Below, piece after piece: positions 3,744-52,200 of a stretch of 64,000 nt of DNA. This stretch comes from Mesostigma viride (taxonomy: Eukaryota > Streptophyta > Mesostigmatophyceae > Mesostigmatales > Mesostigmataceae): the NCBI GenBank assembly GCA_009746045.1, contig RPFO01000002.1:2005506-2069505 (forward strand), given 5' to 3'. Below the pieces are notes generated by a model. It did not search any database. It saw nothing but the letters and a program-made list of their open reading frames with translations, and was not told the DNA's origin. Every line of letters begins with the position of its first letter. The stretch's first letter is position 1. The position numbers and the translations under genes are program-made.

Positions 3744-3820
3744 TTACCGGAAGCAGTGCATGCACAGGCCCGTGGCCATCTCACCTGAAGCAGTGGATGC
3801 GCAGGCCCGTGGTGATCTCC
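3744..3820 (-). repeat. 37-bp tandem duplication of the AAPT last exon end
   Basis: The minus strand reads the end of exon 16 ([12 protein letters not shown]) and then a second copy 37 bp later that reads [13 protein letters not shown] in a shifted frame. Both copies end where a stop codon overlaps a donor-like sequence: CAG|GTGAGA (TGA) for the first and CCG|GTAACG (TAA) for the second. Confidence 0.88.
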
Positions 3821-6800
3821 CCGATAACACCCAGGCAGTAGTGTGCGTGCAGCGCCGCTGAGGGGGCCAGGGTGTGGCAGGGGTGGAGAACGCGGCGAAA
3901 CAGACCAAGTCGTGTGATCCAAACCGCAGGGCATGCGGAAATATTGTGAGCAGATGCCACGCAGGCTGGTGCAGTACTTGGAATTTGGGATGCACCTTTG
4001 CTCTGGCCCCGGTCACGCGCGCGGGACTTGCCGTAGTCGCAGGACATGAAGAGCCACGTAAGCAAGCATGAGAGGGCACGGGGCGTCGCATTGCACGGTA
4101 CCGCCAACTTGGTGGAACGTGAGCACAAGCGGGCTGGATTTTCAGGCCATGCTAAAACATACCCCGGAGTATCCCCGCGGGGTGCGACCGTGCCCTATTA
4201 GCCAGCAGCAGCACATGCGGTGCGCCACGGCATGCTTTTGTCCATGGGGGTGCCCGAAGAGAGAGGTCAAGCATGCCACGTGCTGGAGGTCAAGGGGACG
4301 AAGGCACTGAGCACGCAACGCCAGCGCCACAAGGTGTGGATGGGAACGTGCGAACAGCCAAGGAAACAAGCCCCCCGAGACCCCGAATATACATCCGCAT
4401 ATCCTCAAGCATTTACTTCAGCATATGCATACACGAGTGCATCGCTCACCGGAGTAGCACGCATCCAGGACCAGCATCCATATCTCTTGCTCACCGGAGT
4501 AGCACGCATACAGGACCAGCATCCATATCTCTTGCTTACCGGAGTAGCACGCATACAGGACCAGCATCCATATCTCTGGGATCAGGGGGCGGCTGCAAGC
4601 ACCCACCACAAAAGCAGCAGCAGGGACGCAGCAAGCCGGATGAGGCGGAGAAAGCATGCAGGTGCCGTAGGAGATGACAGAGATGCGTGATAATGGCTTG
4701 CCAGCAGAATGGCACCAGCGTAGCTACTAAGGCCACCAGTACCAGGGAAGGAGGGGAATGGCACAAACTATTCGATGGCTCAGGAATATCTCCATTAGCT
4801 GCTATGTTAACACTAGCGCAAGTGTGTTTCTGCTATAACTTTCCAATCCGACAGCCTTGCAACAAGGACTGCGTGCATAACGCCTTGAAGCTGTGCGCCC
4901 TGGGCAGGTCCCCGCCCCCCCCCCCCTGAGGCGGCACTCTGGCAACCCCTGCATGTCGGCATCCTCTTCCACCACAGACTGCCAGCTGTCGCGATGACAC
5001 AACGCATGCAGCGCAGAGGTGTCGAACAGCTACTTACATCCTACCGTTCCCTGTGAGGCATGCTCCATCCGAGCACATGGCTGGCACTGGACGCCAGCCA
5101 TTCCCCTGGGCACGGCCAGGCAGGTGCATACTGCATGCGGTGCCCTGTGGGCCCCTGCCCTAGTACAGCAGTGACGATGCTGCAGATACCACAATGCGGC
5201 CAGCAGGATGCCATCGCATGCGGTTGGCGCAGCCACTCCACACAACAACGTCCTGTCACACGCACAACCCCCCCTAAAAGGACAACGCCGGTTTCAGGCA
5301 AGGGCTGTGGGGCGTCCCGAGTATACAGGCAAGAAATCTACCGAGAAGGGCATGTGCTGCCCAGGCAGCGCTACGGGATGGTGCGAGCCACAGGCATGCA
5401 GGCACCACCCAGGAGAAGGCACACAGGGGAAAAACAGGGGGAGAACAATGAGGGGCACGGCTTGTAGAGGAAGGGCAATTTCTCAAGCGTCAACTGCGCA
5501 TGCTTGGCACTCACTTGTCGGCGAACAGCTTGGCGGAGAGTGCGTTGGAGATGGCCAGCGGCAGCACGAAGAGGGCCTGCGGCGGCCGCAAGGCACGGGG
5601 CCAGGGAAAAGGGGGCATTGTGAGGGTTCTGGGAGGGGAAGAGAGGGAAGGTAAGATGGGGTTGTTTGACCTGCGGACAACACATGGCCCAATGGCATGA
5701 CACGTACCCAACACGGCCGCAGCCTGACCCATGCTCATGCAAGGTGATAGGAGCAAGGTGATCGGCAAACACCATAAGCCATGCTGGACGACGAAACAGG
5801 GACTATGTCTGAGCATGATCCAAGTGAGCATCAGCAGCAGGCATCACAGGCGGCAGCACAGCGTGTCCCTGCACTACCCAGGTGGATGCAGGCATGCAGC
5901 ACGACACGACGCAGCTCAAAGCCTCAGTATGCCATCTATATGGCCCCCGGAAACAAGTAAGTGCTGCCATTGGCCAGAATACGCAGCAACCGGTTTCCTT
6001 GTTCATTACCCCCTCCTGACATATTTCACCCCCTCCCCACCATTCCCATCCTCTGCACGCCCCCTTCCTATTCCTTCTGCACGCCCCCTTCCTATTCCTT
6101 CTGCATGCCGCCTTCCTATTCCTTCTGCATTAAATTAAATTAAATTAAATTATAACATGCCTCCGTGGGGAGGTCATGTAGCACATATTCCATGATGGAT
6201 GGAGTGGAGGAAGCCGCGTGATCGAACTAGCCTAACTCTAAGCTATCTAGAAAATCCTTCTGCATGCCGCCTTCCTATTCCTTCTGCACGCCCCCTTCCT
6301 ATTCCTTCTGCACGCCCCCTTCCTATTCCTTCTGCACGCCCCCTTCCTATTCCTTCTGCACGCCCCCTTCCTATTCCTTCTGCACGCCCCCTTCCTATTC
6401 CTTCTGCACGCCTGCAATGCACTCAAGCAAATGCCACCGGCTGGTAACAAAAGCTTTCCAGCCCTCTGCCACCACCGGCTGGTAACATGTGCTGGTGTCG
6501 CCACCCAAGCTTACTTAACCGTCATTCTGTTGGCCCCTGGCTAGAATGCTCCCCACCACCAAGGTGCTGCCAACCAGCAGATAGCCAGGGTGGCCAGGAT
6601 CCCCTGGGTAAGCTAGCCACCTACCAGCGTCATGCCGGTCTTCATCCCCAGCGGCTCGTCGCACAGGTTAGCGAGGATCATGCGGCCCTGGGGGGCGGGG
6701 GGGGGAAGAGGGGGGAAAGGGGGGAAGCCATACATGCCAATGGACAGAGCGGAAGAGGCAAGCACATAAGACTTGGGTGGCAGTGGCGCACAGCACAGCG

Positions 6801-9800
6801 TGACAAGAACGGCGCGACCCTGGGTACTACAAGGCCCTGGATGCGCTGCACCAGGGGGGGGCATGGGAGGAATGGCGAGGATAGGGGGTTATTCGCGACA
6901 TGGAACACGGGGCATGCGCTTGTCTAGAAAACTAGATGACGTAAGGAATGTTCCTCAAGCCTGGGAGCTCAACTAACTGCAACATTATCACCTAGCATTG
7001 GGATGGTGATTCTTCAATCGACCGTGTGGTTGTTTGGATATGACACAAGACGTGGTCAAGCGCGGCAAGGCACGCCACCTCAGATGCTGGTGTAATGAGG
7101 ACAGTTTAAGGAGACAGCATCACAGTAAGCAACAGAATGGGCTGCCGGATGCCGACGAGAGTGAGGGACCCAGAGGCACGCGTGCCACCACGGTGCCCAA
7201 GATCACGCGTGCCAGCTCACCACCATGGTGCCGAATGAGATCCCTGCCGCCATGAAGAGGAGGAAGGGGTGCTTGCGCATGATGTCGGTGGGGGAGACGA
7301 GCCCCCTGGCAGCGCGCAGGTACCCCAGCGGGCGCATGCGGATCAACAGGGCACCGCGCAGCGCTAGTGGGTGCATGGGCGTTAGCATGATGGAAGAGCG
7401 TACTGTGGAAGAGCATACCTTCCTGAGAGCCAGCCAACAACTTCTAGCCGTAGGGACAGGCAGAGAGCGTTGGGGAAGCCCGGTACAAAACGTACATTGG
7501 GCTGTTCAACCTCAAGAAACTACACTCAGGAGATATGAACTATCCAGCAACCAGACTCTTGGGCCACATCAATGGAGCTCCCGTAAGTAGGCCATGATGG
7601 GCAGTTCCAAACAACGAAACTGGAACGCTACTACAATGTACATGCAGATGATGGACCACAATTACTCCCTAAGATCCGTTGCTTGCGGCAGCCTCGCTCT
7701 GGAAGCAGCATAATCCTTGCCTGCACACTTACGCCCTCACAGCCCAGCACAGACGGACATGCTGGCCACTTGGGGTGTGGGATCCAGCACAAGAGGCGCC
7801 AGCCGGTGGCTACAATCCAGAAGTGAGAGCACACAGCCAACCGCTCCCTTCAGAAATGAACGCCATTCCAGCCTTAATGTAGCCACCAACGCATTGCTTA
7901 CCTGAAAACTGTTTTCATTGGCTGATTCCTGAAACTGTGTGCACTGTGAGCTTCATCCTTCCAGGCAGATCTGTCAGACCCGTCTGGTACCCCGACACCA
8001 AGATCTGGAATAAAATATTCCTCTTGTGCGGTGCATCTGTCGCAGCTAGAGACTGGACATCCTGACAGGTGGACCCTGCTAGAAGTTGCAGTAAGGACTA
8101 CGTAGACTGCTATTCCTTGGCTGCTAAAGACGTATCAAGCTAGTCGCCCAAGGGTGCTCAGCAAGCAGTAACGCCGTGGCACTTGCAACACGGATGGTTC
8201 CTGGGCACCCACCAGATGAAGACCATGGAGATGAGGAGGAAGAAAGGGATGGTCTGGAGGAATGCGGATGTCAGTGAGCGCTTGTCCTTCTGGATCTTGT
8301 GGCGCACGTTCGCGTAGCTGTCGACGCAGCAGGGTAGGGGGGCGGGGGGGGCGCCACCGAGTGCCGGATAAACCGCATGAGCAGGCAGCAGGGAGCACAG
8401 GGAGCAGGGAGTAGGGAGCAGGGAGCAGGGAGCAGGGAGCAGGGGGCAGGGGGCAGGGGGCAGGGAGCAGGGAGCAGGGAGCAAGGGGCAGGGGGCAGGG
8501 GGCAGGGGGCAGGGGGCAGGGGGCAGGGGGCAGGGGGCAGGGGGCAGGGGGCAGGGGGCAGGGGGCAGGGGGCAGGGGGCAGGGGGCAGGGGGCAGGGGG
8601 CAGGGAGCAAGGAGCAGGAGCAGGGAGCAGGGAGCAGGGAGCAGGGAGCAGGGAGCAGGGAGCAGGGAGCAGGGAGCAAGGAGCAGGGAGCAGGGAGCAG
8701 GGAGCAAGGAGCAGGGAGCAGGGAGCAGGAATACAAAAGCTTGACACAATCATGACCACCTGCACACCATACAGTGCTAAAATGCAGATTTGTCAGGTTG
8801 GAACGGGTCATTAAACATCGAATTCGGCCCAAATTCGCCTCTCAGCATTACATAAATAACAATATAGCAGGCTTTAAGCATTGCCTGTAGAATCGCCGTG
8901 GATCCCTGCTAGCAAATATGGTCATGGATGCGCCTTGCAGGGCATGGCCGTGAGTCTTGCCTACCAAAAGTGCCTGCAAGTTTTTTCCTACAGTTTCCAT
9001 GCCTGCCAACACATGCTAGCAACCAGCTGTCAACATGACCGACTGGCGAGTGCGGTGGACACCTCACTGCCTGAACCAGGGGTAGTGCTGAGAGCACAGC
9101 CACTGACAGGGACAAACTCAGAGTTGAGCCTGGCTTGTGGGTAACACTAAGAGAGCCACAAATGGACCGTTGCCTGTGACTGATACTGGGAAAGAGTAGC
9201 AAGGCTGCTACCGATGCTTATGCAAAGTCCCAGTAGCTTCTGGCCAAGTCTAGGATGGTTGCCTCAACCACCCCCATCCCCTCTTTCCCCCATTCCCCTG
9301 CCCCTGCCCCATCACCGCAGCCAGCACGGTGCGACCTACTTGGCGTAAACGGTCGGGATGAGTGCGACGGTGGTCATGATCATCAGCACCACGTCCATCG
9401 TGATCACGTGCTCTGGACCAGGGGTGTGTAGGGGGGACAAGTGGCGCGCCCAGGGTTGTCAAGGCGGCAACAGCAGGAGGGCAGATGCCAAATGCGTCAT
9501 GGGGATGCAGAAGCAGGGCCGTTCGCGGGGCGACAGCAAGACGCGACGGGTGGCACAAAGCGAACACGGTTGACGATTAGAGTGCAAAAGGGTGGTTACC
9601 TTTTACCCCACCACACGCTTGATGTGTAATATTGCCCCCTAGCAAGGGAATGATGGGCTGACTCAGTACAGTAGTGTGCATTTCCAACCAGCTCCATCAC
9701 AAGTGTTCCCATGGCTCACCCGTCCGCATGACTGCCGGGAATGTGTTGTCCTTCCCATCAGCACACAGAGAAGCCGGCAGTGTAATGGGAGTGGCATTAC

Positions 9801-12800: not shown

Positions 12801-15800
12801 GGGGGGGCAGAGGGGGGGAAGCAGGGGGGCATCAAACGCGGGTGGGGAGCGGCACAAGTGTTTGGACAACCGTGTGTTGTGGGCGAAACTCATACCCTTG
12901 GCACATCGTTTGATGAGCCCACACGCCTGCCGAGCGTGAGCTTACCGAGCACGAGAGTGAGTCGCAGCCTGGCAGCAGCGAACAAGGCACGTTCCCGCGG
13001 CCATCCGTGCCCGATGGTTGACCCCAAGTGGCAGGGGCAAGCGTGGTAGAAAGGGTTGAAGAAGAGCGCTCGTGCCAGGCATGTAGGAGAAACGTAGTGA
13101 CGATGAGGGAACAGCAACAATAAGCATTCTCTTTAGGGAAGGGCGAGATGTTCACGCACATGTTAGAATAACAAACAGGTTTATGCATACTATAAAAATT
13201 ATCCGCTTGATTCCAAGGAGATCTTCCTGTAAAGTTCTTAGCGAAGCATTTCCATACAACAAATGCCGCCATACGTGCACACTGTACAGCTGCTGCCCCA
13301 AAGCCCCCTGTTTGCATCGTGTTGTCGTGTTTGTGAACGAGCAACCTGACCTCAACGCCACCCTCAACGTCAATCTTCGGGACGGATGGTTGGCATCAAA
13401 CCTGTGCAATATAAGCACGCGCTTTTCAAAAGCAAACCCAGCCAATCCACTGGACAAAGCTATGTGCGCCAGGTGGAAGGCGTTCCTCTCACAGCTAACG
13501 GTCACGCCCACACGCGGAAAAAAAGCAGCGACAGATGCAAGACCTTGCCACCATATCTGCTGGGCCTAACCAGATGCACATAAATGGCCCTTGCCATACC
13601 GGGAGCTTTTCCACACAACCACTCCACCAGCTTCAATACCTGCAGGCGATTTACCCGACTCTGCACCATTACCACGACCAGCAAATGCAGCTTCCCATAC
13701 TTTTACCAAAAAAGGACAAGAATGCAAATGTTTCTCTGCCTCCTGAACGGCCAGGCGCAGCTCAATCCAAACAGGAGCAGACAAGATAGCCTGGCACAAC
13801 CAGGCCGCAGCAGGCAGGTCCAGGCAAGACTCAGGGCAAGGACTGGCTCGGCAGTTGGGAAACTGGTAAAAGTTTGGCCAAATTCACTTGCAACTTCAAT
13901 TAAAACAGCATACAGCACTGGATTCGAAAGATTCTGCTGAACCCAATACACCACCCCTTCAAGTCAAGCGGGCATGTACTGGCAAGCGCTGCATGCTCTC
14001 ACCAACTTTGACCCCACTTTATTCACGAAATAAATTAAGAAAAGAAATAATTTAGGAAAGAAAAAAAGCATGACCTAAAAGTGGAGGGGTAGACATGGGG
14101 AACAGAGCGATGCAACATGTTAAACAGGAGAGCTCAAACAATCAGGCGGCAGCAGCACCAGCAACCGCAGCAAATACTGTCGTCAACAGGAACAAGGTTG
14201 TCTTCTGTGTCTAAGCAGCTGCTCGCACTCTCGCTTGACCACTATGGACGACAGGATGCACACGCAGGTAACGGCTACAGGGCGGCAGGGACAATTGATT
14301 CCCAATGCTAGCACACGCACCGTGGTCAAACAGCTCTCCCAGTGGTGACGAGGAGTTGGTGCGCCGGGCCTGCTTGCCGTCAACCGCATCAAACGTCTGC
14401 CCGTGATGTCCACCACACAAGCGCGAGGCAGGATGCCGTGGAAAGGACAGCACAACACAGGGGGATTTGGGGGGCAAAGAGACCGCCATTCACAGATAAG
14501 CTTGGCAACATGTCAGAAATGCCAAGGCTCGTGACGTAGTTGGGTCCCTCAAGCACAGCAAGACCGTGCTGCAATAACTTGTCCCTGCAGTTGACATCCG
14601 GCATACATGCTATCATATATGTGGTAATTCTGCATAACAAGAAACATTTCCAGTGGTGGCTGCAAAGATGCCAATCTGTGACTTCATACTTGGCAGGATT
14701 CCTTTACGGAGCAGAATGCCAACCCAGGTGACATTCCGAGCGCAACCCAGGTGCTGTTCCAAGAGCAAGCAAGTTCTATACAGGAACCATCGTACAATCA
14801 AGACATGGGTGCAATTGCTAGCATCATGCAGCGCCATGGATGCGGTCACGCATCTCTTCCACCGGGCTTGTCATCCATCACTGGGCAGACTGGCTGGCAC
14901 ATTATCCTCACGCTCGTGGTCATCGCCACGCAGTGCTGCGCCACCAACATCAAAGGTCTGCACTTGGCTGACAAGCCGAAGATGCAACCCTTCTGCACAG
15001 GCAGCCTGTGGTGCTGATCTCCTCCGATGCCTGCCCACACACACGAACCCATCCAAGCTGCCACGACCATCATGGCTGACATATGCATTGTGGTGTATGC
15101 GAGCATTGCGCGGTGGCCGCTAAGCCTTCCAAACTACAGCACACAGCCCTGCCTCCAGATCGGGGATAGCGCCTCCATTACACTGAGTGCACACCCACCT
15201 GGACAGATCAACTATATGAATAAAGCCTGGCCATAGAATCCACGAAAGCACCGCCGAAAGAAACTATGTAATCCCGCGAGCCATAGCCAACACACAGGCA
15301 TCAGCTGCAGCTGGGGAGCACCCACCCACCCACCCACCCACCCACCCACCCACCCACCCACCCACCCACCCACCCACCCACCCACCCACCCACCCACCCA
15401 CCCACCCACCCACCCACCCACCCACCCACCCACCCACCCACCCACCACCCCCACCCACCCACCCACCCACCCACCCACCACCCACCCACCCACCCACCCA
15501 CCCACCCACCCACCCACCCACCCACCCACCCACCCACCCACCCACCCATCCACCCACCCAATGAGCTGGTCAGTGGCAAGCAAGTTGAGCAATCGCAGGT
15601 GGGTGCATCCACTGTAAGCTTGGTACAGGAAGAGCAGGATGGGATGGAAGAGGCAACGCCCACGGATCTGTACTTGTTGAGGAACAGTGATCAGAACCTA
15701 TTCTTACCTGGTACAGGAAGAGCAGGATGGCGTGCAGCAGGTAGACGATGCGGGGCGACTCCTCGCGCAGGTTGGGGGAGAACCACTGCCGTGGCGAGGA

Positions 15801-18800: not shown

Positions 18801-21417
18801 GACGGCGCACTATCATCCCTGCAGAGAATGTCTGCTCCTGGTAGCGTTACCTGGTTCTCCATTACCATGTAGTTGGCAGCACTAAGCTCAAGCACGGGTG
18901 CTAGCATTAAGCATGCCTACGTACAAGAGAGAGACGAAGGGCGAAGTGCTTCCATCAGGATAGCAGCAGTGAGACACATGTAAAATTTGACATGTAAGCG
19001 TGCCCGGTGGCATTTAGCGCACGTGGCGTACCGGTAACACCCTGCGACAACCCGCATGAGCCACCTACACTACAAATGGAGCAGCTGCGCAGGTCGCGAC
19101 GGCAGAAAGAGCACACTACGGCGGCGCTATCAATACATATCCACAAGCAAAGTCTGCAAGCTCATCCGTCTCTCACGTATGCCCGCCCTGCCCCGGGTGG
19201 TGCACAGCCCCCCAACCCCCGCCCTGGCCCTGATCCTGGAAGCCATGTTCTAGGGTCCAGGGCATCCGATGAAACAGAATCATCAATTGAAGCAAAATGT
19301 GTTCAATAGAACGAATGATGAGCCACCCACCAGGTTCGGCCTGCAGACCACCCAGCGAGCCGCCCCCGTCCATGATGCATGCATGGCGGCGATCCAACAG
19401 CAAGAAGCGCGGGGGGAATGCGGGGCATATCAATAAGCCAGCCACATCCTGCTGCGCATGCAACCGAGAGGGCACACACCGGCCACGCTGTCCAAGAGTT
19501 GGGGGAGGCACAAGGTGGAAACGCACCATGCATGCTGGCTTATATGTACACCTACACACCCGATGTTGCCTCCTCCTTGGAAGCACCACAACATGGCACG
19601 GATGAGTGGCACCACGTTGCATGCTGGCAGGCAGGCAGGCCACATCCACAGGCTTGGGCACGACACCGCGGCTGGACTCGACCGCCACAAGGAGTGCCAT
19701 TACCAACAACAACAAGCACTCTTCCCCGAGCTTGACACACCCACCCAGGGATACTACAGTGCCCTACCCTGCCCTGCCCTGCCCTGCCCTGCCCTGCCCT
19801 GCCCTGCCCTGCCCTGCCCTGCTCTGCCCTGCCCTGCCCTGCCCTGCCCTGCCCTGCCCTGCCCTGCCCTCCCTGCCCTGCCCTGCCCTGCCCTGCCCTG
19901 CCCTGCCCTGCCCTGCCCTGCCCTGCCCTGCCCTGCCCTGCCCTGCCCTGCCCTGCCCTGCCCTGCCCTGCCCTGCCCTGCCCTGCCCTGCCCTGCCCTG
20001 CCCTGCCCTGCCCTGCCCTGCCCTGCCCTGCCCTGCCCTGCCCTGCCCTGCCCTGCCCTGCCCTGCCCTGCCCTGCCCTGCCCTGCCCTGCCCTGCCCTG
20101 CCCTGCCCTGCCCTGCCCTGCCCTGCCCTGCCCTGCCCTGCCCTGCCCTGCCCTGCCCTGCCCTGCCCTGCGCTTCCCCGCCCCGCCCCGCCCCGCCCCG
20201 CCCTGCCCTGCCCTGCCCTGCCCTGCCCTGCCCTGCCCTGCCCTGCCCTGCCCTGCCCTGCCCTGCCCTGCCCTGCCCTGCCCTGCCCTGCCCTGCCCTG
20301 CCCTGCCCTGCCCTGCCCTGCCCTGCCCTGCCCTGCCCTGCCCTGCCCTGCCCTGCCCTGCCCTGCCCTGCCCTGCCCTGCGCTTCCCCGCCCCGCCCCG
20401 CCCCGCCCCGCCCTGCCCTGCCCTGCCCTGCCCTGCCCTGCCCTGTTGACAAGCTTGACAGCATCAGCGGTTCACTCGATGTTTACATCATCATTTAGCG
20501 CAAAAATTTGATGTGCATGACAGAACCACCTCATCCGCCCATCCGCCGTGACTGCCCTCGTCCATCGTGGCATCAACCAAAGCACACGTCAACTGCCCAA
20601 CAAGGGAGGAAATAGGCTCCCTGCAATTGAGGTGTACCTCAACCACATGAGTAGCATGTCCACAGCTACAAGTGGCATGAACAGACCGCCCTGGCTACCT
20701 TGGTTCCAGAATATATAATAGAAAACCGCCATGCACTGCATATTTGCTGCTGTTAAAAACTACAAACCATTTAGAAAATCCCGACAAGAAGCAGACTACA
20801 TCGAGTTAAAACAATAAGATCCTACGCAATCCAGTGCGTTGGAAGGCAAAGCTGGGGGAAACCCCCCAAGATCCCGCAGCAATTTTTAAAAATTTCGCAA
20901 CGTCCATACATGACACGGGTATAGGAGCTTAAATTAAAAAACATAAGCCAGAACCCCTGTCCTAATTCGCGGAGGACTACCGTGAATGACTAATATTCCA
21001 GAACAAAAGCAAAAGCAAACCTGCACGACGGTAGGTGCGGACTTGAGACAGGTACCATCTCATCACCACCTAGTTTCATGTCTACTATGAGATTGCAACG
21101 ACTATATCGGCGACCGCAGCCGAACACATACCAGGAACCATGCTATACGAAGTAACGAAAGTTAGTCTAGATGACCGATAGGTTGTGCAAACGACTTGCT
21201 AGACGTTGTATCACGGAGATACGAGCATTTCCTAATCTACTGTCTATGCGCAATCACTTGTGGGGGCGTGTACTCACGCTAGCCACATTGGAAAGAAGCG
21301 CACGATGTATGTCCAATAAGGTTGGAAAATGTATTTGGCCATCAGCGATTTGTCCACACCGCTGTACTTGTAACGCCGCAGGCAGTCCATCCCATGCTTC
21401 CCTATGAAGACCCCCAT
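3781..21417 (-). CDS. AAPT1: CDP-choline/ethanolamine aminoalcohol phosphotransferase (AAPT), 16 exons
   Basis: Final step of the Kennedy pathway: transfers phosphocholine or phosphoethanolamine from the CDP-alcohol to diacylglycerol in ER/Golgi membranes. Exons on the minus strand: 21417-21278, 19340-19331, 18610-18560, 15785-15708, 14396-14321, 12968-12946, 12436-12324, 11169-11075, 10452-10384, 9412-9340, 8317-8213, 7305-7221, 6687-6625, 5576-5515, 4592-4540, 3857-3781. All phases agree and the joined product is 390 residues, about the size of plant AAPT. The start is [20 protein letters not shown], as in plants. The CDP-alcohol phosphotransferase motif DG-x2-AR-x8-G-x3-D-x3-D is complete: D99 G100, A103 R104, G113, D117, D121. 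Later conserved blocks include [18 protein letters not shown] and [12 protein letters not shown]. About nine hydrophobic segments are visible. Plant relatives continue a few residues past the final HCFR, so a further exon is possible. Confidence 0.93.
4450..4592 (-). repeat. 45-bp tandem triplication of AAPT exon 15 end plus donor
   Basis: Exon 15 ([17 protein letters not shown]) ends at 4,540 with a GTAAGC donor. Its last part and donor then repeat twice more with a period of 45 bp, ending at GTGAGC donors after 4,495 and 4,450. Because 45 is a multiple of three, all three donors have the same phase, and use of the later ones would add 15 or 30 residues in frame. The only amino-acid changes visible between copies are the linker Lys/Glu and one Tyr-to-Asp. 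Confidence 0.92.
4593..5514 (-). other. AAPT intron between exons 14 and 15
   Basis: Intron DNA. It includes a C homopolymer at about 4,912-4,926. I see no further exon, since exon 14 (phase 2) joins exon 15 directly as an Asn codon. Confidence 0.7.
6052..6412. repeat. 24-bp minisatellite in an AAPT intron, split by a retroposon
   Basis: Units built on CACGCCCCCTTCCTATTCCT repeat about three times at 6,052-6,130 and about seven times at 6,256-6,412. The gap of 125 bp is an inserted short element with a target duplication. The array lies in the intron between AAPT exons 13 and 14. Confidence 0.9.
6131..6255 (-). mobile_element. short retroposon with 10-bp target duplication
   Basis: The 125-bp insert is flanked by perfect CCTTCTGCAT copies at 6,121-6,130 and 6,256-6,265. 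It begins on the plus strand with (TAAAT)n and then ATAACATGCCTCCGTGGGGA. It is related to LINE 3' ends at 29,050, 32,075 and 34,665. In minus orientation it is a truncated 3' end with an (ATTTA)n tail, as expected for target-primed insertion. Confidence 0.75.
8386..8728. repeat. 7-bp GGGAGCA / GGGGGCA minisatellite
   Basis: Blocks of GGGAGCA and GGGGGCA units form an array of about 340 bp in the intron between AAPT exons 10 and 11. The two unit types form homogeneous runs: GGGAGCA at both ends and GGGGGCA in the middle. Long open frames here, rich in Pro-Ala-Pro-Cys or Gly-Gln-Gly, are artefacts of the repeat. Confidence 0.95.
11236..11463. repeat. (CCCA)n microsatellite, AAPT intron 7
   Basis: A CCCA tetranucleotide array of about 228 bp lies between AAPT exons 7 and 8. 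On the transcribed RNA it reads (UGGG)n, which could form G-quadruplexes. Confidence 0.95.
12946..12968 (-). other. 23-nt microexon carrying the last catalytic Asp of AAPT
   Basis: On the minus strand this 23-nt exon is bounded by CCAG and GTAAGC. It completes a Gly codon and encodes CDSLSCS. Its Asp is the fourth and last Asp of the DG-x2-AR-x8-G-x3-D-x3-D motif (D121). The phases (1 in, 0 out) match exons 5 and 7 exactly, and the family has CD[AS] at this place. Confidence 0.9.
15319..15560. repeat. (CCCA)n microsatellite, AAPT intron 4
   Basis: A second CCCA array of about 240 bp, with two single-unit interruptions (CCACCCCC near 15,445 and CCACCACC near 15,478). It lies between AAPT exons 4 and 5. 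Confidence 0.95.
15621..15733 (-). repeat. partial duplication of AAPT exon 4 3' end
   Basis: The exon 4 end (plus-strand TGGTACAGGAAGAGCAGGAT at 15,709-15,728) occurs again at 15,621-15,640, 88 bp downstream in gene sense, inside the intron. The copy has lost the GTAAGA donor, reading CCAAGCTTAC instead. Confidence 0.85.
15791..16040. repeat. 19-bp minisatellite abutting AAPT exon 4
   Basis: About 13 copies of a 19-bp unit containing GGCCGAGGACGGCACAAG. The array begins only a few bases from the exon 4 splice acceptor at 15,786-15,788, so in the transcript it ends directly at the branch-point and polypyrimidine region of intron 3. Confidence 0.93.
16770..18531. repeat. 1.76-kb (GGGA)n polypurine tract
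   Basis: An almost pure purine run of GGGA units, with GGA and GA length variants scattered through it, fills most of AAPT intron 3 and ends about 30 bp from exon 3. In the transcript it is a polypyrimidine (UCCC)n run. The 589- to 681-codon open frames across it are repeat artefacts. Confidence 0.97.
18611..19330 (-). other. AAPT intron 2
   Basis: Intron between the 10-nt microexon and exon 3. I see no further exon or repeat. The acceptor is CTGCCACAG just upstream of the ATC that starts exon 3. Confidence 0.7.
19331..19340 (-). other. 10-nt microexon of AAPT
   Basis: On the minus strand the sequence is CTGCAG, then the ten bases GCCGAACCTG, then the donor GTGGGT. The first base completes an Ala codon begun by exon 1 (phase 2) and the rest encodes Pro-Asn-Leu. 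This restores the conserved W-L-A-P-N-L-I-T-L block of the family between exon 1 (ends MWL plus GC) and exon 3 (starts ITLIGF). Without it the reading frame breaks. Confidence 0.85.
19760..20447. repeat. (CCCTG)n pentanucleotide array
   Basis: About 685 bp of CCCTG units in AAPT intron 1. Two identical interruption blocks (CGCTTCCCC followed by CCCCG units) sit at about 20,170-20,200 and 20,381-20,411, 211 bp apart. This shows that a block of about 211 bp was itself duplicated. Long Ala-Leu-Pro-Cys-Pro frames are artefacts. Confidence 0.96.
20448..21277 (-). other. AAPT intron 1, non-repetitive part
   Basis: AT-richer intron sequence between exon 1 (donor GTGAGT at 21,277-21,272) and the CCCTG array. 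No other exon or element recognised. Confidence 0.6.
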
Positions 21418-22296: not shown

Positions 22297-23947
22297 ATGA
22301 GGAAGGTGCCAAGTACACGGTGCCTTCTAGGAGCAATTTTTCCGATTTTGGCCTGCTGCTATGCTTGGGAAGGCGCACCGGAGGAGAAATTTGCTCATGG
22401 CAAAGATGCAGGTATTTTCATTTGGGGGGGCGGGATTTGCGAGGTTGCGTTGGCGATATGTCCGAACAAGCACCAGTTGCTGCCGCTCCTGGCATTTGCC
22501 CCCGCATTCTTTCAACTTCACCTGGGCTAGGTTGTGAGCCCTGGCTGTCTTTTCCTCGCGGGATGCTGACCTTGTCATAACCCGTATCGTGTGCTTCACC
22601 TATACCTCTTGGGTCTGCTATTTATCTGCAACAGGAAGCGAGCATGTTCGTTGGACAACCTCTGCTCCACGTGCGAGCAGTGAAACGATCAAAAGAGACA
22701 TGTGGCATCGATTAATGGCAAACTTAGATCATAGCTCCAGCTGGCAGCACCATGAGACCCATGGCGGGTTACAGGGGAGTAGCATGCGGGCACGAATGAC
22801 GAGAAAGCTCACCTACAGTGATGACAGCAGCAGTGACGAAGCGGACGCCTCGGCAAAATGGCTCGCGAGGACGCGGTGGTGTGCGCAGCCACTGCCCAAG
22901 GCCAGGTCTCGCGGTACGCGTCAGCTCCTGCAAAAGCCGACTGCCCGCAGGGTCGCCCCCGCCCCCAGCACAGAAGCAGAAAGCGACGATGCATGGCCAT
23001 CGGATGAGAATGAAGCGGGGAGCAGCCACTCAACCCCCGCCGAGCCAAAGGTGTACTTGGTGGGCAACAACTTCACGGAGCCGACCGGGCCCGGCAAGTC
23101 CAAGCGCATGGCTCGCTTCATCGTGAAGGAGATGACCCCCACCGAGCAGACGTCGTGCCGCCACACGGGCATGGCGTGCGCCGAGGACGCACCCCTGGGG
23201 GGTGCGCGCAAGCGGCTGCGGGAAGGGTCCCTGGGCACGTGCGCACTGGTAGGGCTGGGTGCCAACCTGTTGGGGCGGCGGCGCGGGCGCGATATCGACG
23301 CGCACGACACGGTCATCCGGTTTGGGGGCGCCCCCATTCAGGGGTATGAGGCGGATGTCGGGCGCCGCACGAGCGTGGCGTACGTGCGCGAGGTGCCCAA
23401 CATGCGCAAGGAGGAGCGCACCGAGGGGGGGCCCAAGCGCGTCTATGTGCCCGGCTCGGACGTTTGGGGTAGCCAGGTGGCGCTGCCGGAGCTCATGTAC
23501 GTGTCGGAAGGCCTGCACGACGTGGGCCTCAAGAAACACGTTGATGTGGACGAGCACCGCGGCAAGGCCTACTGGCCGATCACTGCGCTGTCCATGGAGG
23601 GCGGCCTGCGTGCAGTGAACGTGTACCACCGTCTGGCGGGCCTCGTGACCATGGTGGCGGACGAGCTCAAGGGGGCCGACCGCGAGGGGGTGCGCGAGGC
23701 GATTCGGGACCGGATGCTTAAGCCCACGTCCGGCATGAAGCTCATCTTCACGCTCGTCCACTCGCGCCTGTGCACACGGCTGGACCTGTATGGGTTCAGC
23801 CGAGATGGCACAGGGCACTACTTTGAGGGCCTGAGCCATGCCCGCAGGGACGCGCGGAGCGCAATGCATTTTAAGCACGTCGCAGGCTTGGAGTACTATG
23901 TGTACAAGGTCGCGATGGAAAATGGTATATTGTGCCTGTACGATTAA
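22297..23947 (+). CDS. GT29 family sialyltransferase-like protein, two exons
   Basis: Exons 22297-22411 and 22635-23947 join in phase (G|GA) to give 475 residues. Exon 1 encodes MRKVPSTRCLLGAIFPILAC, a basic then hydrophobic start that fits a type II Golgi anchor or signal peptide. Residues about 45-190 form an acidic, Ser-rich stem. The catalytic part has the sialylmotif L signature (CALVGLGANLL, then IDAHDTVIRFGGAPIQGYE, then VGRRT) at about 241-287, motif S (KPTSGMKLIFTLVH, then LDLYGF) at about 401-425, a HYFEG motif III near 433 and an H-x7-E motif VS near 450. Family knowledge: GT29 enzymes move sialic acid from CMP-sialic acid to glycans. Green algae hold many GT29-like proteins whose donor and acceptor are uncertain, so the substrate here is not known. 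The body is in one long GC-rich exon, unlike its neighbours. Confidence 0.88.
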
Positions 23948-28610: not shown

Positions 28611-29044
28611 GTAGTGTAGATTAGTAAGGCTTAGCCTAGCATGTGGCCCACGCGCATGTGCGCCCATAATGGCCCCCATGGATGATGCCTTCAACATTTA
28701 GCCATGCTTTGTCTATAATGGGACCCCCATGGATGTTGCATTAAGAATTTAGCCATGCTATGCCATGCAGAGAGATGCTCTCTGTCGAGAAGCCATGCCC
28801 TAGCTCTTGTATAGCCATGATGATCTTCCCCCACATGACATACTCCCCCTTAGCTGGGCATAGTGTGAAGATCATGAGGGTGCCGGTGCCCTTGAGGAAC
28901 CTAGAGCAAGTGCTGCTTACATTCCACTCTTGCAGGAAGTAGCCTAGAATGTATTAAAAGCCATATATGCCCCTTCTCAGGGATATGTGCTACATTGACT
29001 CCCAACGGAGTGATGTTGATAGTTAATTAATTAATTAATTAATA
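28611..29044 (+). mobile_element. LINE-like 3' region with (AATT)n tail
   Basis: Starts GTGTAGATTAGTAAGGCTTAGC, shared with the minus strand from about 32,450. It contains repeated ATTTAGCCATGCT blocks and GGGATATGTGCTACATTGAC, then CTCCCAACGGAG, and ends in (TTAA)n at 29,020-29,044. Non-coding. It represents the 3' untranslated part and tail of the element family. Confidence 0.6.
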
Positions 29045-30660
29045 AAGGAACATGACTCCGTTGGGAGTACATGTGGCACATATCCCTGAGATCGAGGGGG
29101 CATATGGCGACTTATTCTGGGCTACTTCCTGCAAGGGTGGGATGTAAACTACACCTGCTCTAGGTGCACCAACGGCACCTGCACCACCATGATCTATCGG
29201 AGCGCTTGCATGGGGCCCGGGATGGGGTGGAAGGTCAGCATGGCTATACAAAAGGGGTCCCCAGTTCGATTCCGGCCTGGATTCATTTGCAGAACGCGTT
29301 TTTCCGCGTTTTCCGCGGACCGGCACTGAACGCAAATGGTTTCCACCTTTGCGGCGTGCCAAATCAGAATACAAAAGGTATAGATAGGGCATGGCTTCTC
29401 AGCAGAGAGTGGCTAGAGCTCTGCATGGGCACAGCATAACTAAATAAAGCTAGGCATCATCTGGTGTGTGGCACATCGATCATAGGCACACATGTACATG
29501 GCTAAATAATGCTAAGGCATCGGCTGGTATAGTGCCTGTAGTAGGCGTCCATGTACAAGGCCACGGTGGCTACATGCGACCAAGGATTTCTCTCTCGAAC
29601 GCCTGTGCAAGCTTCTCAGGTTCAGTCTCACCTTCCACCAGGTCGAAGTTCTTGACGATGACGTTAAGGCTGCGCTTGGCGAGCTCGGCCTCCTCGCGGA
29701 GGTCGAGCGTCTGCTGCTGGAGCTGTGCTGCGACGGCGGAGGTGGTGCATGGAGGTGGTGTGGTGCTTGAGCATGTCCGCCCAGGTCTGGGTTGGAGGAG
29801 CATCGCCAGCAAGGCCAGCGCCGGGCTGGCTTGGCGGCAATGTCCTTCACCGCCTGGCCGGCCGCGGTGAGCTAGGCCTGCGGTGTTTTGCAGGCACTCG
29901 ATGGCAATGGCGTTGTCCTCAGTGGAGGCGCTTGTTGTCGATGTCACGGAGCTGGCCAGTGGTGGCGTCGGTGGAGGCGGTGGGGGGGGGGGGGAGGAGA
30001 GGAGGGTGGAGCTGTGGAGGTGGAAATGGCGGGGAGCTCAGCAGCCAGCGTGCGGCCCGCACCTGCCACATCTGCATGCAGCTAGGGGCGTCACGTGCTG
30101 TGAGATGGCTTTTTTAAGGTGGAGGAGGAAGGTGGATTTGGGCAAGGGGGAGGGGACCCAGAGGTCTTCGGCAGAGCGCTGAAGGATGGCAAAGAGGGGG
30201 GCCGGCGAGCTGAAGGCGCGGTTGGGACCAGTCGGGCAGACCTGTGGTTAGGTCCGCAGTGAGAAAACCGGCCGTCAGGTCCGTTGCGGAGGCGATTATG
30301 GCGGAGGAGGAGGCGCTGGCACACTGACAGGTCAAGGGGGGAGGAGGCGTACGACCCATAAAGCACGAGCTCCACGTATCTTGATGGGTGGCATGTCGAA
30401 ATAGCTGGGTCTGTTGACGCCAAAGGTGGAAAATAACCTGTCGACGTCAAAGTCGCGCTCAGACCAGCTAGGTTCGGCTGGGCGGCTGCGCTTGGGCTCA
30501 GGCGATGCAGAGGGCGAGGCATTATGCCCGGGAGGGATCTGGGCGACCACCAGTGCGCGACTAGTGTCACCGCTGCCTGTCGGACCTGAGGGCGAAGCGC
30601 AGCCGGAGCTGCAGTCACCTATTTTCAGCCCTGGCTTAGCGCAGCCGCCAGGCTGCGTTG
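29045..30660 (-). mobile_element. LINE copy, minus orientation, ORF1 plus 3' region
   Basis: From the shared tail region inward: CTCCGTTGGGAG at about 29,052, AGCACATATCCCTGAG-like sequence, a SINE-type block at 29,250-29,372, then ORF1 on the minus strand. ORF1 pieces include LYGSYASSPLDLSVCQRLLL (about 30,310-30,360) and LRSLHRRSRE-type and KRSLNVIVKNFDL segments (about 29,640). Frames shift several times. Head to head with 28,611-29,044, it makes the two tails meet. Confidence 0.55.
29250..29372 (+). mobile_element. SINE fragment, copy C
   Basis: CCCCAGTTCGATTCCGG (B-box-like) followed by ATTCATTTGCAGAACGCGTT, the doubled TTTTCCGCG block and CACTGAACGCAAATGG, as in copies A and B. The 5' half is missing. 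Confidence 0.6.
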
Positions 30661-33560: not shown

Positions 33561-33599
33561 TCCCAACTCTTGAGTTGGTAGCACAATTCCAAAAGCGTG

Positions 33600-33940
33600 T
33601 CCCACCACGTCCCATGAGTGCAGCTGGTCACTCAGACCTTTCTGCCATCAAGTACGCCGCACCGGGCACAACTGATTCCTCTATCTCCATGGCGCTCAGA
33701 CTCCTCCGGGTGGTGTGTGCCTTGGTTCGGTCGGTCTTTTCCCACTCCATGCACCATCAAGTGTGAGGACGCGAATGGGGCCGGCGGCCCTCTATTCCCC
33801 CAACCACCGGCCCGACATTACCGTGCTCAAGGAATACGATCGGCAGGGTTGCTACCTGCTAATGGCATGATGTCTCTCTCTGTGGCTCGGCCGCTTTCCA
33901 GTCGCCACATCAGTCCTCCGGGCAGCTTGTCACATCCGTG
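33600..33940 (+). pseudogene. degraded retroelement endonuclease-like fragment
   Basis: Pieces in different frames: VRSVFSHSMHHQV, then FPQPPARHY or PTTGPTLPC (the degraded PNHRPDI block), then SVARPLSSRHI. The order matches 27,950-28,130 and 62,510-62,600. It is heavily frameshifted. Confidence 0.45.
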
Positions 33941-34599: not shown

Positions 34600-34935
34600 T
34601 TCATTAATTAATTATATATTAATTAATTACTTAATTAATTAATTATTAATTGATTAATTATGAACATAACTCCGTTGGGAGTAAATGTAGCACATATCCC
34701 AGAGAAGGGGCATATGGCTTCTTGCAAGCTACTCCCTGCAAGGGTGGGAATGCCATTCCCAGTAAACGACACTTGCTCTAGGTGCACCAAGAGCACCTGC
34801 ACCCCCCAGAGTCTCGGGCAACACCCAGCTAAGGGGGATGCAGACGATATTTGTTTAAACTTTTGTGTAATTATTTTTCTAATGAGATTAGTAGCATAGT
34901 ACTCCGTGGCATGCCTTTGCGCATGACACGCAAGT
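34600..34935 (-). mobile_element. LINE-like 3' end with (TTAA)n tail, minus orientation
   Basis: An ATTAATTAATTA tail at 34,602-34,658 precedes CTCCGTTGGGAGTAAATGTA and AGCACATATCCC, as in other copies. The block TAATTATTTTTCTAATGAGA at about 34,868-34,887 through CACGCAAGTACTTACTTACT also occurs at about 2,379-2,452, suggesting a second short repeat joined to it. Confidence 0.55.
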
Positions 34936-36880: not shown

Positions 36881-36885
36881 TGTTG

Positions 36886-38512: not shown

Positions 38513-38710
38513 GTAATGTGGCAGCCAGGTTTACTGCGGGCATTGGGGGTATTCAATGTACCAAACATATGTCTGATCGTAATGTGGCAGCCAGGTTTAC
38601 TGCGGGCATGGGGGGGGTTCAATGTACCAAACATTTGTCTGATCGTAATGTGCCAGCCAGATTTACTTCGGGCATTTGGGGTATTCAATGTACCAAACGT
38701 TTCTCTGAAT
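38513..38710. repeat. 66-bp tandem repeat, three copies
   Basis: Units start with GTAATGTGGCAGCCAGGTTT at 38,513, 38,579 and 38,645 (the third slightly changed). Since 66 is a multiple of three, the frame stays open and gives a 22-residue repeat (e.g. FNVPNICLIVMWQPGLLRA). There is no flanking evidence for a real protein. Confidence 0.85.
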
Positions 38711-46200: not shown

Positions 46201-49200
46201 GACAAGGAAGCTTGAACATGCCTGCTTGCTTCCCTCATCTGGCCAAACCCTGTACCGCATATCTATTCAGGCATGCAGGGTGAGGAAAGGGAAGGTGGAG
46301 ACCGCCTAGTGGTAGCCTTCCAAGCGAGTCTTAGTAATCTCAAGGACAGCAGCTTTGCGCGCATACTGGGCTCCTGGTCATGTAGTAACTTGCTCGGTCT
46401 GCTTGGCCCTATTGACTAACGGCGAAGTTTGCTGTGTATGCTAGCAGTTTGCTAAGCAAGGTTCCTAGCGTACCACCAAGATAAAAAATTGCCTTGCATG
46501 GTTCCTCGCATTTTGCCCAAGATGTTTGCCTATGCGTTATGAGTCATTAGCCTTTAGAGAGCCTTGGCCGGCTTTTTCTAATTGGCTTGCTCTGTTCTGC
46601 GACATGTGTCTTTCGGCCATGTGCCTGCAGAACACGGCAGGGTCCCAGTCGGCGAGTACTTCTCTTGTGTGTTCAAGTAAGCCACCAGATGGACTTTCTG
46701 ATGCTTTTATGGCTGTATGGCAGCTTTCAAGCCCTTTCCATGCTGGTCAGTGCCCCGGCACACCCTTGTTCCCCCTTGTGGACTGGTGACCAAGGGGTTG
46801 AGCCGTCGAAAATCTGTGGTATTGGTGTTTTCGGCCGTTAAGGGTCCTTAAATACCGCATTTTGCCACAGCTACTAACGAATATTTTCCCTTGGCACTGC
46901 AGGGCCACCTCCGCCTCCTAACCCACCGCCACCGAGGCCGCCACCGCCACCAAGGCCGCCACCGCCGCCAAGTCCTCCGCCTCCACCAAGCCCGCAGCCA
47001 CCGCCACCAAGCCCTCCGCCACTAAGTCCTCCGCCACCAAGTCCTCCGCCACCAAACCCACCGCCACCAAGTCCTCCGCCACCAAACCCACCGCCACCAA
47101 GTCCTCCGCCACCAAACCCACCGCTACCAAGTCCTCCGCCACCAAACCCACCGCTACCAAGTCCTCCGCCACCAAACCCACCGCCACCAAGTCCTCCGCC
47201 ACCAAGCCCTCCGCCACCAAGCCCTCCACCGCCAAGCTCTCCGCCACCTCCATCGCCGCCGCCGTCGCCACCACCACCGTCACCATCACCCCCACCATCA
47301 CCACCTCCGATGGCACCATCACCACCATCGCCACCACCTCCAGATCCCCCACCCCCACCATCACCACCACCTGCAGATCTCCCACCCCCACCATCACCAC
47401 CACCTCCACATCCCCCACCCCCACCACTTCCACCCCCCCCATCACCACCACCGTCACTGCACCCACCAAGCCCACCACCACCATTAATAGGGTTGCCCGT
47501 TTTCATCCCCCCTTCATTGTTGGTAAAATCATCGCCACCACCGCCACCACCTCCACCACCGTCATCACCGCTGCCATCAGGCTTGTATCTTCCAGTCCCC
47601 TCATTGCCACCACTATCGTTGCAGACTTCCCCGCCTCCCTTCTCCCCAAGTGAGTTTCAACCTCCCCCGCGCATGTCAGAGCCACCTTCGTTACTGCTGC
47701 CACCCCTGGCATCCCTGCTGCCGCCATCATCGTCTCTGCTGCCACCAGCTACCCAGTGGCCCCCGCCCGCTGCCCAACCAGACTTGCACCCTCCCCCTCG
47801 GCCACCCTCTTTGCCCCTGTCAGGGAAGCCGCCTGCCAATGCGACCCCTGCAGAGGGCGCTCAGCCACCGGCTCCCCTTCCTAGTCCAGAGGAATCGCCT
47901 TCCACTTCTGCCCACCCACCGCCGAGGTCACCATCGTCGCTGCTGGCACCCGAATCTGAAGGTTCCCCGGTGGGAACGTCCCTACCGCCTGGAGCGCCAG
48001 CTGGGTCACCCTGGCCTTCCCCGCTGGAGGTATTGTCGCCGCCTGCCACAGTGGAAACACCGGCAACGCCTTCCCCTTCCCTGGTGAGCGAGTCTCCCCA
48101 TCCCTTTCCCCCACCAGTCAAGTCCCCCCCTCCCACACGGTCCCCGCCTACACCCCCCAAGTCACCCCCCCCACCCCACTCCCCACCCCCACCCCCAAAG
48201 TCACCACCGCCCCCACGGTCGCCCCCTCCACCTCCAAAGTCACCCCCACCCCCACGGTCGCCCCCGTCCACAGGGTTTCCCCCTCCCTCGCACTCCCCGC
48301 CGCCTCCGCTGAATCCCCCCCAGCCAGCTCCGCCACCACGCGAGCCGTCCTCCCCTCTGCACCCGCCCCACCCGCCCAAGCCGCCACACCCTCCCTCCTG
48401 GACATCACCGCCGTTGCCGCCCCCGCCCACCCCACCGGTGCCCCCGGTTCCCAGCGCCCCACACACGCCACCACAGCCTCCATCCTTCCCACTGTCGCCT
48501 CCACACCCACCGCCGCAGCTGCCTCCGCACGCGCCTAGTTTTCCACCGCCCATGCCCATTTCTGGGCCATCCAGGGTGCCGCCACCCATGTGGCCCCCTC
48601 CACCAGGACCTGGAGGCCCGCCTGCTTCTGCCCTCGTCGTCTCTCTGGTGACCAGTTCGGGCGTCGGGCAGGTGTCCTTGGGTCAGTCCTTCGCCCTGCA
48701 GGCGGACGTGGACGTGACCGGCTCCCCGGACGAAGACGCGGTGGTCCAGCTGTCGTTTGCCAACATGGGAGGTAGCGGGCTCGAGGGCGCAGGTGGTAAC
48801 AGCTCCGATACCACGGGCTGCTCCACCTACCAGCTCGAAGCAGCCACTCCCTCCCAGGGTTCCTGCGGCCTGCCGGATAACGTCACCTGCTCCGTCACGT
48901 GCCGCCTGGGCCGCCTGGCGGTTGGCGCATCCGCGTTTGTGGATCTCTCCCTGCGCCCGCTGGTCCCTGGTGTGCCCCTGGTGATGTCGGCGGCCAAGGT
49001 GGTGGATAACGGCACCGCAGCCACCCAAGTGCCGCTATCCGTGGACGCGGTGGGGGGGGCCCGAGGGGAGGCCGTAGTAGCTGTCGGTACGTGGGGTGGG
49101 GGGGAGCGTCGGTGCGGATTTTGGTAATACAGGTAAGGTGACTAGCAGCAGCTACTGTAGTATAAGCAGCTTATGTTTTTACTACCATCTGCTGGCGCCT

Positions 49201-52200
49201 TTCCCTAGATTACATGTTATTTTTGTAGTCTCAGAAAGCATCTGTTATCGCTCATCGCCGCTTCCGTATGCCCTGGCAGGTACAGGTCACAGTGAACCCA
49301 TCTTGTTTTGGGGCTGCGTTCTGCCTCTGATAAGCATCCTCATTGCGGTACCATTACATCCCCATTCAGGCCGCTGATCCGTTATTGCAGGCTTGGACAA
49401 ACACCCAGGGGCCCGCGGAGCTGTCGAAGACGTGTTGGTGGGTAGGCGATTGCTGACCACTATCCCGTATACTAAAGCACTCCAGAGGGTTGTTCTACGT
49501 CACTTTGGCCCACATGTCAATACGTCTCGGGTTTCTCTGAGCAGATTCCAAGCAGCCCATCATCATCCCAGACCCTGGCATGGGGCAGCGAGTCACCCTG
49601 TACCCTGGTGGGCGGAAGACTTCCCTGCTGGTGGCGTCTCAGTCACCATTGCGCTTCACCATAGCAGGGCCCGCGCTGGCCTCGTGCACCACCGCGCAAA
49701 CCATCGACACGTTTGGCACGGGGGAGGTGCAAGACGTGGTGGCGGGGGCAGGCACCGCCGAGTGGCCGCTTTTGTCATTTACGGTGGGTGGGTGCGGCGG
49801 CTCCTGCGCTGGGAAGGGACTCTAAGTGTGCATATGCACCTGCTCCAGTTGTGTGGTGGACACGGTTAAAAGCTACGCGGTCAATAACATTATAGCGATT
49901 AGAAATTGCTACAGTAACCCACGTTGGTGCATGCCCCTTGGCCACGTATCAGACTGCTGCGTGTCTTACCACACTCATCGCTGTCATCATGCTGGTCACG
50001 ACTATCATCAACAGCCGTTGCATGCCATGCCGGCAGCCAGTAGGTAGTACTCCCGTTGTGTGCCTTCACCAGAGAAGCTGCAGAGTTGGCAATGCACAAA
50101 GTCTTTGTAGCCGTTTTTTTTGGGGGGGGGGGGTCATTTCTTAGTTTGGCCACGCATGTGTGCATGCATACACCTGGCCATGCCATGCCAGGGGTATGCC
50201 GCTGAGGAAATCGCTCGAGGAAAATCCTGGACATAATCTCTGCTTCTGCCGGTGGCTGTCCACAGTGCTTTGCCACAACATGTTGCAGGCAATTGCGGTC
50301 ATCTTCTGGCTTGCATCTGGCATGCGTGCTTGCGCGCTTGTGTCTTCCGTTCCCTTGTCGTCTTATTCAACGGCTCAGGTGGTGCCCACATCAAGTGTGC
50401 TGTCCCTCCAGCTGCTGGCCGGAGCCTGCAGACACGCCGCTGAGGAGCCCAGCCTGGCGACCGACGTGCTGTCGATGCTCGTGGGTGGGTGGTACAGTGT
50501 GCCCACAAGTAGATCTCACACCACCTGTGCAGGCCCAGACCAACGTTGGGAAAGAGGAAAGAGAAATATTGTTTGTAGGGTAGCGGGGAAGGGGAAACTC
50601 TCTTTGTTGTTTCTTTTAGAAAGGGGGGAAGGGAGATTAATATGTTTTCAAAAACGTTTCCCCGGATCAATGAAAGTGGACCGACAGGATGGCAGTTGAC
50701 GACTCGCTCCCCATTGCATGTATGCGTTATGGCACGGCTTTATGAGTGGGCATGTGACTGGATCTGACTGGACCTGGTGGCGCACTCATGTCGTTTTCCA
50801 CCTGCTTCTGACATGTTGAATGCTGTCTTGACCTCGTTTTCCCATGAAAAGGCTGGCACCTTGCCTTGCCTTTGCGTCCTGCGCTGTCCCCGTGAGGATG
50901 TATCCCCATACACCCATCACGACTGCCCACCTAGACGCTGCATTGGAGGGTACCTAGCTGTTCTTGCGGTGCCGTTTAGAGCACAGCTGGGATCTGTTCT
51001 GCCTTTCGTTTGCCACCATGGGCTGTCCGTTTGGCAGCGTAGCCAGAGAGGCCTGTTCCCTTGTTTTCTTTCGTCCATCTGTATGCATCTATTAAGTAGT
51101 CTATTAATTAATCTGTATGCATGCCGCGGATTCTCACCATGGCAAACACACGTTTCCGCCGTTCCTTTATACTGATGGCGCCCCCGAGCCACATGTTTGT
51201 ATGGAACACTGCGTACAGTAGGTGACAGGGAGTGACAGTAATAGTATGTGATCAGAGAGTAGCAGTAGGTGACGCAGCGCCCGTGACCTGTACAGGTTTG
51301 GCATATGACATGGGCTTCATTTGACCCCAAATTTCCCTAAACCTGAACCAACATAAGGGGGGGGGGGGGGGCTCCATCTAAACTTTCACTGAAGTATATT
51401 CAAATTCTGACCAGAATAAGCAAGCACAAACAAAGGGTGCCGTGAACTTGTCGCTAGCGTGGGCGGACTATGAGGCAGGTGTGCTGCAAGCTCCAGCTTC
51501 AGCTAGCTCTTCTCACTGCTAGGAGCTGAGCGTCTCGTCTCAATGCGACATGAGCCGACTGAAACAACGTACCTTTCAGCCTTCAGCCCGCGATTGCAGT
51601 GGAGGTTTTCTGATTATTATAAAATTGTGGGGTTCTGGACTCATAAATACTCCCACTTCTTTGCAGAGGATTTTTTGTCAAATCATTAAAGACTCTGCGC
51701 TATGCATTGGGGTGCACGCCCAGCGCAGTTTAGCCTGGCCCTTTGCTGCCGCATCACGCAGGTTTTTTTAGTTAAGTACAGGCCCCCTCTCAATTGTTTC
51801 GTGGTGTTTTAAACCCAATCTACCTGCTCTTGTGCAACGGTCGGTGGTGGGCTGGTCCTGCCAGACATCACAAGGCCATCGGTCGCGGTTGCTGGTTTAA
51901 GTGGTGTCAGGATTCACGAGGCCACCGCGTCCTTCTCCATCCAGTTCAGCGAGCCTGTCGAAGGCTTCTCAACCGAGGGCATTCGTGTTGAGAACGGCGT
52001 TGCGCTCAGGCAAGTGAAGAAAGCGGCTCGCAACCAGTCTGATCCGATGGGTGGGAATAAAAGGGGGCCCTGGTAGAGAACGGCGTTGCGCTCGGGTAGG
52101 TGGGCGTGCGCTGGGTGGGGTTACGAGTAGCTGGGTGTGAGTAGGCAGGGCAGGGGGGGCGTCCCTAGTTGAGAATGGCGTCGCGCTCAGGCAAGTAACT

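Follow-up and report, generated by a model that had tools for sequence, protein, structure and literature searches.

Short extra copies of exon ends downstream of 5' splice sites in Mesostigma viride are probably ordinary local duplications

In a stretch of 64 kb from the genome of Mesostigma viride (contig RPFO01000002.1, positions 2,005,506 to 2,069,505; 55% G+C; hereafter the window), which belongs to an assembly of 440 Mb and 2243 contigs, and in additional genes of the same genome, we found that for about one in ten checkable exons the next intron holds a short extra copy of the exon's last bases, usually together with a splice signal. We consider it probable (roughly 0.66) that these copies represent ordinary short local duplications, which are common in introns, purged in exons, probably purged at acceptors and tolerated at donors. 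According to this explanation, short tandem-type duplications, with or without filler between the copies, would arise anywhere in the genes of a tandem-repeat-rich genome by DNA break repair or replication slippage. Duplications inside exons would alter the protein and be removed, and those across an acceptor would supply the spliceosome with a new upstream AG and would probably be removed more often. A donor-spanning copy would be tolerated because the upstream copy retains the complete exon and a working donor, presumably the one in use, and the extra sequence falls in the intron. In addition, an exon-end copy should remain recognizable about twice as long as a pair of intron sequences, since one of its two members is held constant as coding sequence. 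Such a filter, combined with a slower loss of similarity, predicts a donor rate about twice the intron rate (an estimated 5-10%), few acceptor cases and almost no exon cases. The data fit this prediction within error, with the donors (9/78) at the high end.

The copies were noticed in two genes of the window. The first, on the minus strand, contains a complete frame of 390 amino acids in 16 exons for the CDP-alcohol phosphotransferase AAPT (Pfam CDP-OH_P_transf), whose relatives of solved structure are the choline phosphotransferases of yeast and human (E value of 1.6e-48). The second, on the plus strand from 40.2 kb onwards, is a surface-protein gene with a proline-rich exon and a bacterial-type Ig domain (Big_12), some exons of which are uncertain. 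AAPT exon 15 (4540-4592, minus strand; 53 nucleotides (nt)) lies within the complete frame and is part of a head-to-tail array of 3 x 45 base pairs (bp) (4444-4577, minus strand), the unit of which consists of the last ~37 nt of the exon and 7-8 nt of intron with the donor. Copies 2 and 3 are intronic and in frame with the exon, and the donors of the three copies read GTAAGC, GTGAGC and GTGAGC. A genome search placed exon 15 at a single position. The Ig-like exon (51865-52009, plus strand) ends at a GC donor, and its end recurs with a donor in two intronic copies of 29-30 nt, one at 52073-52102 (donor GT, GTAGGT) and one at 52168-52196 (donor GC), both on the plus strand and beginning 63 and 158 nt past the exon end. 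The spacers between these copies show no detectable likeness except for a short stretch immediately before copies 2 and 3. The GC donor at 52009 is the only one among the listed donors of the window; the nearest paralog of the exon, at locus L029, also carries GC.

The original prediction counted four clear cases of a duplicated exon end with its donor. The repeats are real, and two of the four, exon 15 (3 x 45 bp) and the Ig-like exon (three copies), fit this description in full. AAPT exon 16 (3781-3857, minus strand) is the terminal exon and ends in TGA, and its array of 2 x 37 bp (3746-3823, minus strand) lies over the end of the reading frame. As the last exon of the complete 390-residue frame, exon 16 contains a presumed donor, AGGTGAG, that reads in frame as the stop TGA, and a stop (CGG TAA) terminates copy 2 as well. 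The supposed donor is thus most simply, though not with certainty, a stop codon. For AAPT exon 4 (15708-15785, minus strand), an exon-end copy does lie 88 bp away, as an exact 22-nt repeat inside intron 4 (15621-15642, minus strand), but no donor was copied, as the repeat stops one base short of the exon end and continues with AGCTTAC. A fifth case at 52.9 kb, described as a joint duplication of acceptor- and donor-like sites, turned out to be a minisatellite of 3 x 47 bp (52884-53024, plus strand), which is situated wholly within the intron after exon 52499-52650, contains no exon sequence and falls outside the class. At AAPT exons 4 and 15, the two at which this was looked at, no new intron is bounded by the copies, and the acceptors are located far downstream of them.

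Within the window, we compared 48 bases at each exon end (40 of exon and 8 of intron) with the next 200 bases, using a score of >=39. The thresholds applied here and below (scores 34, 38 and 39; 200 nt) were set after the window cases had been seen, and sites overlapping masked arrays as well as low-complexity windows were excluded from the counts. For the surface gene, this test included the uncertain exons 56581-56741 and 57003-57042, which were replaced by exons 61108-61211 and 63283-63518 in the wider predicted set, the position profiles, the search of 165 exons, the totals and the geometry search. Matches were found at 4/34 exon ends, with the terminal exon 16 counted, compared to 0/32 acceptors (Fisher P = 0.064). 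Intron query positions outside long arrays reached the same score in 0.97% of 13,814 instances. Against this rate, binomial P values were 3e-4 for four cases, 0.004 for three and 0.04 when only the two strict cases are taken. All P values of this comparison are post hoc, as they follow the choice of cases in the original prediction and are not independent. A random-position control that kept the long arrays gave 6-18%, above the donor rate of the surface gene, and was set aside as dominated by repeats.

Additional sequence was taken from the same contig, 200 kb upstream and 50 kb downstream of the window, and exons were called with a home-made chain predictor. A self-trained prediction at low exon cost was dropped, since it called 1874 exons and was exact for only 2/16 AAPT and 5/18 surface-gene exons. 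The stricter predictor that was used instead placed 13/16 AAPT and 15/18 surface-gene exons exactly, though these exons were in its training, and many of its chains in the added 200 kb still contain false or retroelement exons. In this wider predicted set (score >=34), copies were present at 4/116 donors and 1/119 acceptors (P = 0.18), compared to 2.3% of intron-interior windows (P = 0.29 for the donors). Exon-interior queries matched the downstream intron in 1/3550 and the upstream intron in 0/3614 instances. When only predicted exons with a score of at least 15 were considered, 4/61 donors stood against 1/67 acceptors (P = 0.155). Duplications are frequent in the introns themselves: the predicted introns of the added 200 kb contain 44 clusters of local duplications. 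Those internal to introns (median length 36.5, spacing 52) are arranged head to tail in 17/40 and spaced in 19/40 instances, a mix similar to that of the donor copies.

To limit the influence of the false and retroelement exons among the predictions, the count was restricted to Pfam-supported genes. The final subset comprised an RPN12-like gene, a lipoyl ligase, an IBR protein, a SPRY and RNF123-like protein in two pieces, a CBM20 protein and geneB, a chain that looks conserved but lacks a Pfam domain. Two further chains were excluded, of which one showed weak matches to CCCH and the other had no match. The genes of this subset outside the window are supported, and their exon boundaries are predicted rather than transcript-based. 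The RPN12-like gene (C1591:1,882,381-1,885,809; UP 82381-85809) encodes a proteasome subunit with the domain CSN8_PSD8_EIF3K (E value of 7.9e-30), which we take to be RPN12, and has exon-end copies in the next intron at 2/3 tested donors. In geneB, copies occur at 2/7 donors. From other contigs, we added mitochondrial-carrier exons, for which 20 loci of 110 matches were picked by eye as likely partial exons. Among these, 2/16 scorable donors, both on contig C446 and ~1 kb apart, and 0/13 scorable acceptors had a copy.

With the window and the carriers included, the totals amounted to 9/78 donors, 1/75 acceptors and 249/9948 intron windows, and only 1/2146 exon-interior windows had a copy in a flanking intron. 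Without the window, the numbers were 6/46, 1/44 and 187/3779, respectively, and when geneB was omitted as well, 4/39 donors remained against 0/37 acceptors (P = 0.064; donors versus introns, P = 0.18). The terminal AAPT exon 16 was left out of the donor counts in the wider predicted set, the totals and the geometry search. All these tests assume independence among the windows and exons of a gene, which does not hold, and the donor matches are not independent because they are paired within AAPT, the RPN12-like gene, geneB and the C446 carrier gene. The predicted recurrence of exon-end copies is nonetheless borne out beyond the window, in the RPN12-like gene, in geneB, at two exons of the C446 carrier gene and in 2/12 paralogs of the Ig-like exon. 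The comparison on which the original prediction hinged, that of donors with acceptors and other intragenic positions, gave a divided answer: the verified donors exceed intron windows, whereas the wider predicted set, with 4/116 against 2.3% (P = 0.29), shows no such excess.

A position profile of the 250 kb outside the window, based on overlapping windows and both directions, yielded 0/151 matches in the exon interior before the donor and 11/168 (in 8 introns) for donor-spanning windows. In the intron, the fractions were 20/423 at 0-100 nt, 33/651 at 100-300 nt and 43/465 at 300-520 nt (4.7-9.3%), followed by 5/184 for acceptor-spanning windows and 3/332 in the exon interior after the acceptor. 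In this profile, the donor resembles the margin of the intron. Windows with their first base exactly at the donor matched in 1/87 instances outside the window, compared to 7/89 for those starting 20 bases upstream and 8/94 for those starting 40 bases downstream.

Several results weigh against an ordinary origin of the copies. The total donor rate is above that of intron windows (9/78 versus 2.5%, binomial P = 1.5e-4, including the cases of the original prediction) and above that of acceptors (9/78 versus 1/75, P = 0.010). Outside the window, 6/46 donors compare with 4.95% of intron windows (P = 0.025) and with 1/44 acceptors (P = 0.06). The rate of 5-10% expected from a factor of two thus sits slightly below the observed one. 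The position profile of the window likewise favours the donor, with 6/57 donor-spanning matches versus 7/129, 6/229 and 3/169 deeper in the intron; its acceptor-spanning count was 0/49. A search of 165 exons with their edges revealed 15 copy pairs, of which 11 are sourced at the exon 3' end (8 exons, exon 16 included). Two of the other four lie at the exon start and two in the exon interior; apart from one acceptor case in geneB, these are in part low-scoring or of low complexity. This tally favours the donor; without a purging of duplications from exon interiors, it speaks against an entirely even process. Finally, a plain tandem unit should leave more likeness in the intron part than was detected: in 8/10 spaced cases, likeness was not detectable past the copy, despite exon parts that match at up to 100%. 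In the other two, L029 and L055, the likeness extends into the intron (P = 0.003 each, the lowest value attainable with 300 shuffles), which favours the ordinary reading.

The donor and acceptor counts, the tally of 11 in 15 copy pairs, the clustering of matches in few genes, the mostly unrelated spacers and the frequent end of homology 5-14 nt past the donor would also be compatible with a donor-directed process. In such a process, the 5' splice site or its transcription or splicing, for example via an R-loop, U1-bound RNA or RNA-templated break repair, would turn the exon end with its donor into a preferred template. The 5' splice sites of some genes would then be hot spots, at which the last 15-45 exon and 6-20 intron bases are repeatedly copied downstream at several times the acceptor or intron-interior rate. 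We regard both the directed mechanism and the hot spots as unlikely. Donors of the wider predicted set show no excess over intron windows, and the copy of exon 4 came without its donor. When 62 donors were searched, 6 had a same-strand copy (score >=38) 0-300 nt downstream, and no copy was found upstream, inverted or farther away (to 20 kb within the sequence run, arrays masked). All six are therefore near and in the same orientation, as in short local duplication, and none is inverted, distant or placed in another intron. On the acceptor side, the same search found one geneB acceptor with a copy within 300 nt upstream, and one further match is exon 15's own array. At the predicted exon C1591:1,870,170-1,870,343, whose gene lacks a Pfam domain, acceptor and donor are each accompanied by a copy.

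The endpoints of the copies also argue against a directed process. The copied exon part measures 15-45 nt in 11 cases, and these cases end between -1 and +8 relative to the donor, where +8 is the farthest that the query could show, a ceiling set by its design. Extended homology ends at -1, +6 to +7, +12, +14, +14 and +22, and at about +23 in L029, a range wider than the common stopping point just past the donor that the original prediction had stressed. A small overhang past the donor is largely expected because short copies needed exon sequence to be noticed. Intronic duplications are common, the copies are local and on the same strand, their endpoints vary, and the wider set gives P = 0.29; the step to a mechanism linked to splicing is therefore not warranted, and donor-directed duplication is not needed for the observed pattern.

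The spaced arrangement of many copies, with mostly unrelated sequence between them, could alternatively result from the insertion of an element just past the donor, whereby the exon end and donor would be duplicated on its other side as a target site. The spacer at L037 does contain a dispersed repeat shared with the window and several of the added loci. The remaining tested spacers (Ig-like exon, exon 4, L046, L055 and three of UP), however, match only their own locus within the sequence compared, a search of the whole Ig region against the genome returned the exon paralog as the only match, and the head-to-tail cases have no insert. Target-site duplication appears very unlikely, and ordinary local duplication with or without filler remains preferred. 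A short dispersed repeat of ~57 nt is present in the window at 6144-6191, 29030-29087 and 34644-34700, and also in L003, L015, L016, L017, L026 and L037.

Intronic copies could also have been retained by selection for a function as decoys or alternative donors. Protein searches identified at least 12 other relatives of the Ig-like exon. The closest, L029 (78% DNA identity), shares with the window exon a copy of exon end and donor ~90 nt downstream, as would be expected from retention. Moreover, the second and third Ig copies have preserved a donor, and those of exon 15 the reading frame. On the other hand, no donor is present in the AAPT exon 4 copy (GCTTAC) or in the first copies of UP exons 70170 (TTGGGT) and 68673 (GGGGGG), and the spacing is a multiple of three in only 5/11 cases. 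L037 has a long copy. In the other 10/12 relatives, a search at the depth used here found no copy; their exon ends were set only approximately, from where the protein match stops, and at least L041 runs on as an open frame. Overall, a role as maintained decoys appears quite unlikely. Either the Ig-exon copies of one pair are old, or such copies arose more than once.

Among known systems, GYNGYN tandem donors reportedly consist of overlapping motifs a few bases apart. They resemble the present copies in having two neighbouring donors and differ in that here 15-45 exon bases are copied. A survey of tandem repeats across plants and green algae found them densest in the introns of Chlamydomonas and Volvox and commoner towards the intron ends (PMC3887541). 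The likeness to M. viride lies in green-alga introns that are rich in tandem repeats, more so near exon-intron junctions; in the accessible part of that survey, however, repeat density is given by region and for both intron ends, and copies of exon end plus donor are not singled out (PMC3887541). For Drosophila, intron gain and intron sliding have been proposed to proceed via tandem duplication of coding sequence (PMC2891723). There, too, coding sequence with splice-site-like sequence is duplicated in tandem, but, as far as the accessible text goes, with a new intron position as the outcome, whereas here a pre-existing intron gains an exon-end copy, usually with a donor (PMC2891723). Small tandem duplications arise where DNA breaks leave 3' overhangs (PMC8355091). 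These are likewise short direct duplications, positioned by the break, and stem from cell experiments in which, in the sections available, a splice-site context is absent (PMC8355091). In a search of open-licence literature, we recognised no description of exon-end-plus-donor copies as a class.

If the copies are ordinary local duplications, the genome of M. viride would offer a natural collection of duplicated 5' splice sites, from which the choice of donor between near-identical neighbours might be read with RNA-seq. If a bias towards donors were true, it would point to a mutational link of splicing or transcription to local duplication, from which alternative donors and changes to introns could directly follow.

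We additionally observed two microexons in AAPT, of 10 nt (19331-19340) and 23 nt (12946-12968). In another gene of the window, an intronless long open frame of ~427 amino acids extends over ~22663-23946.

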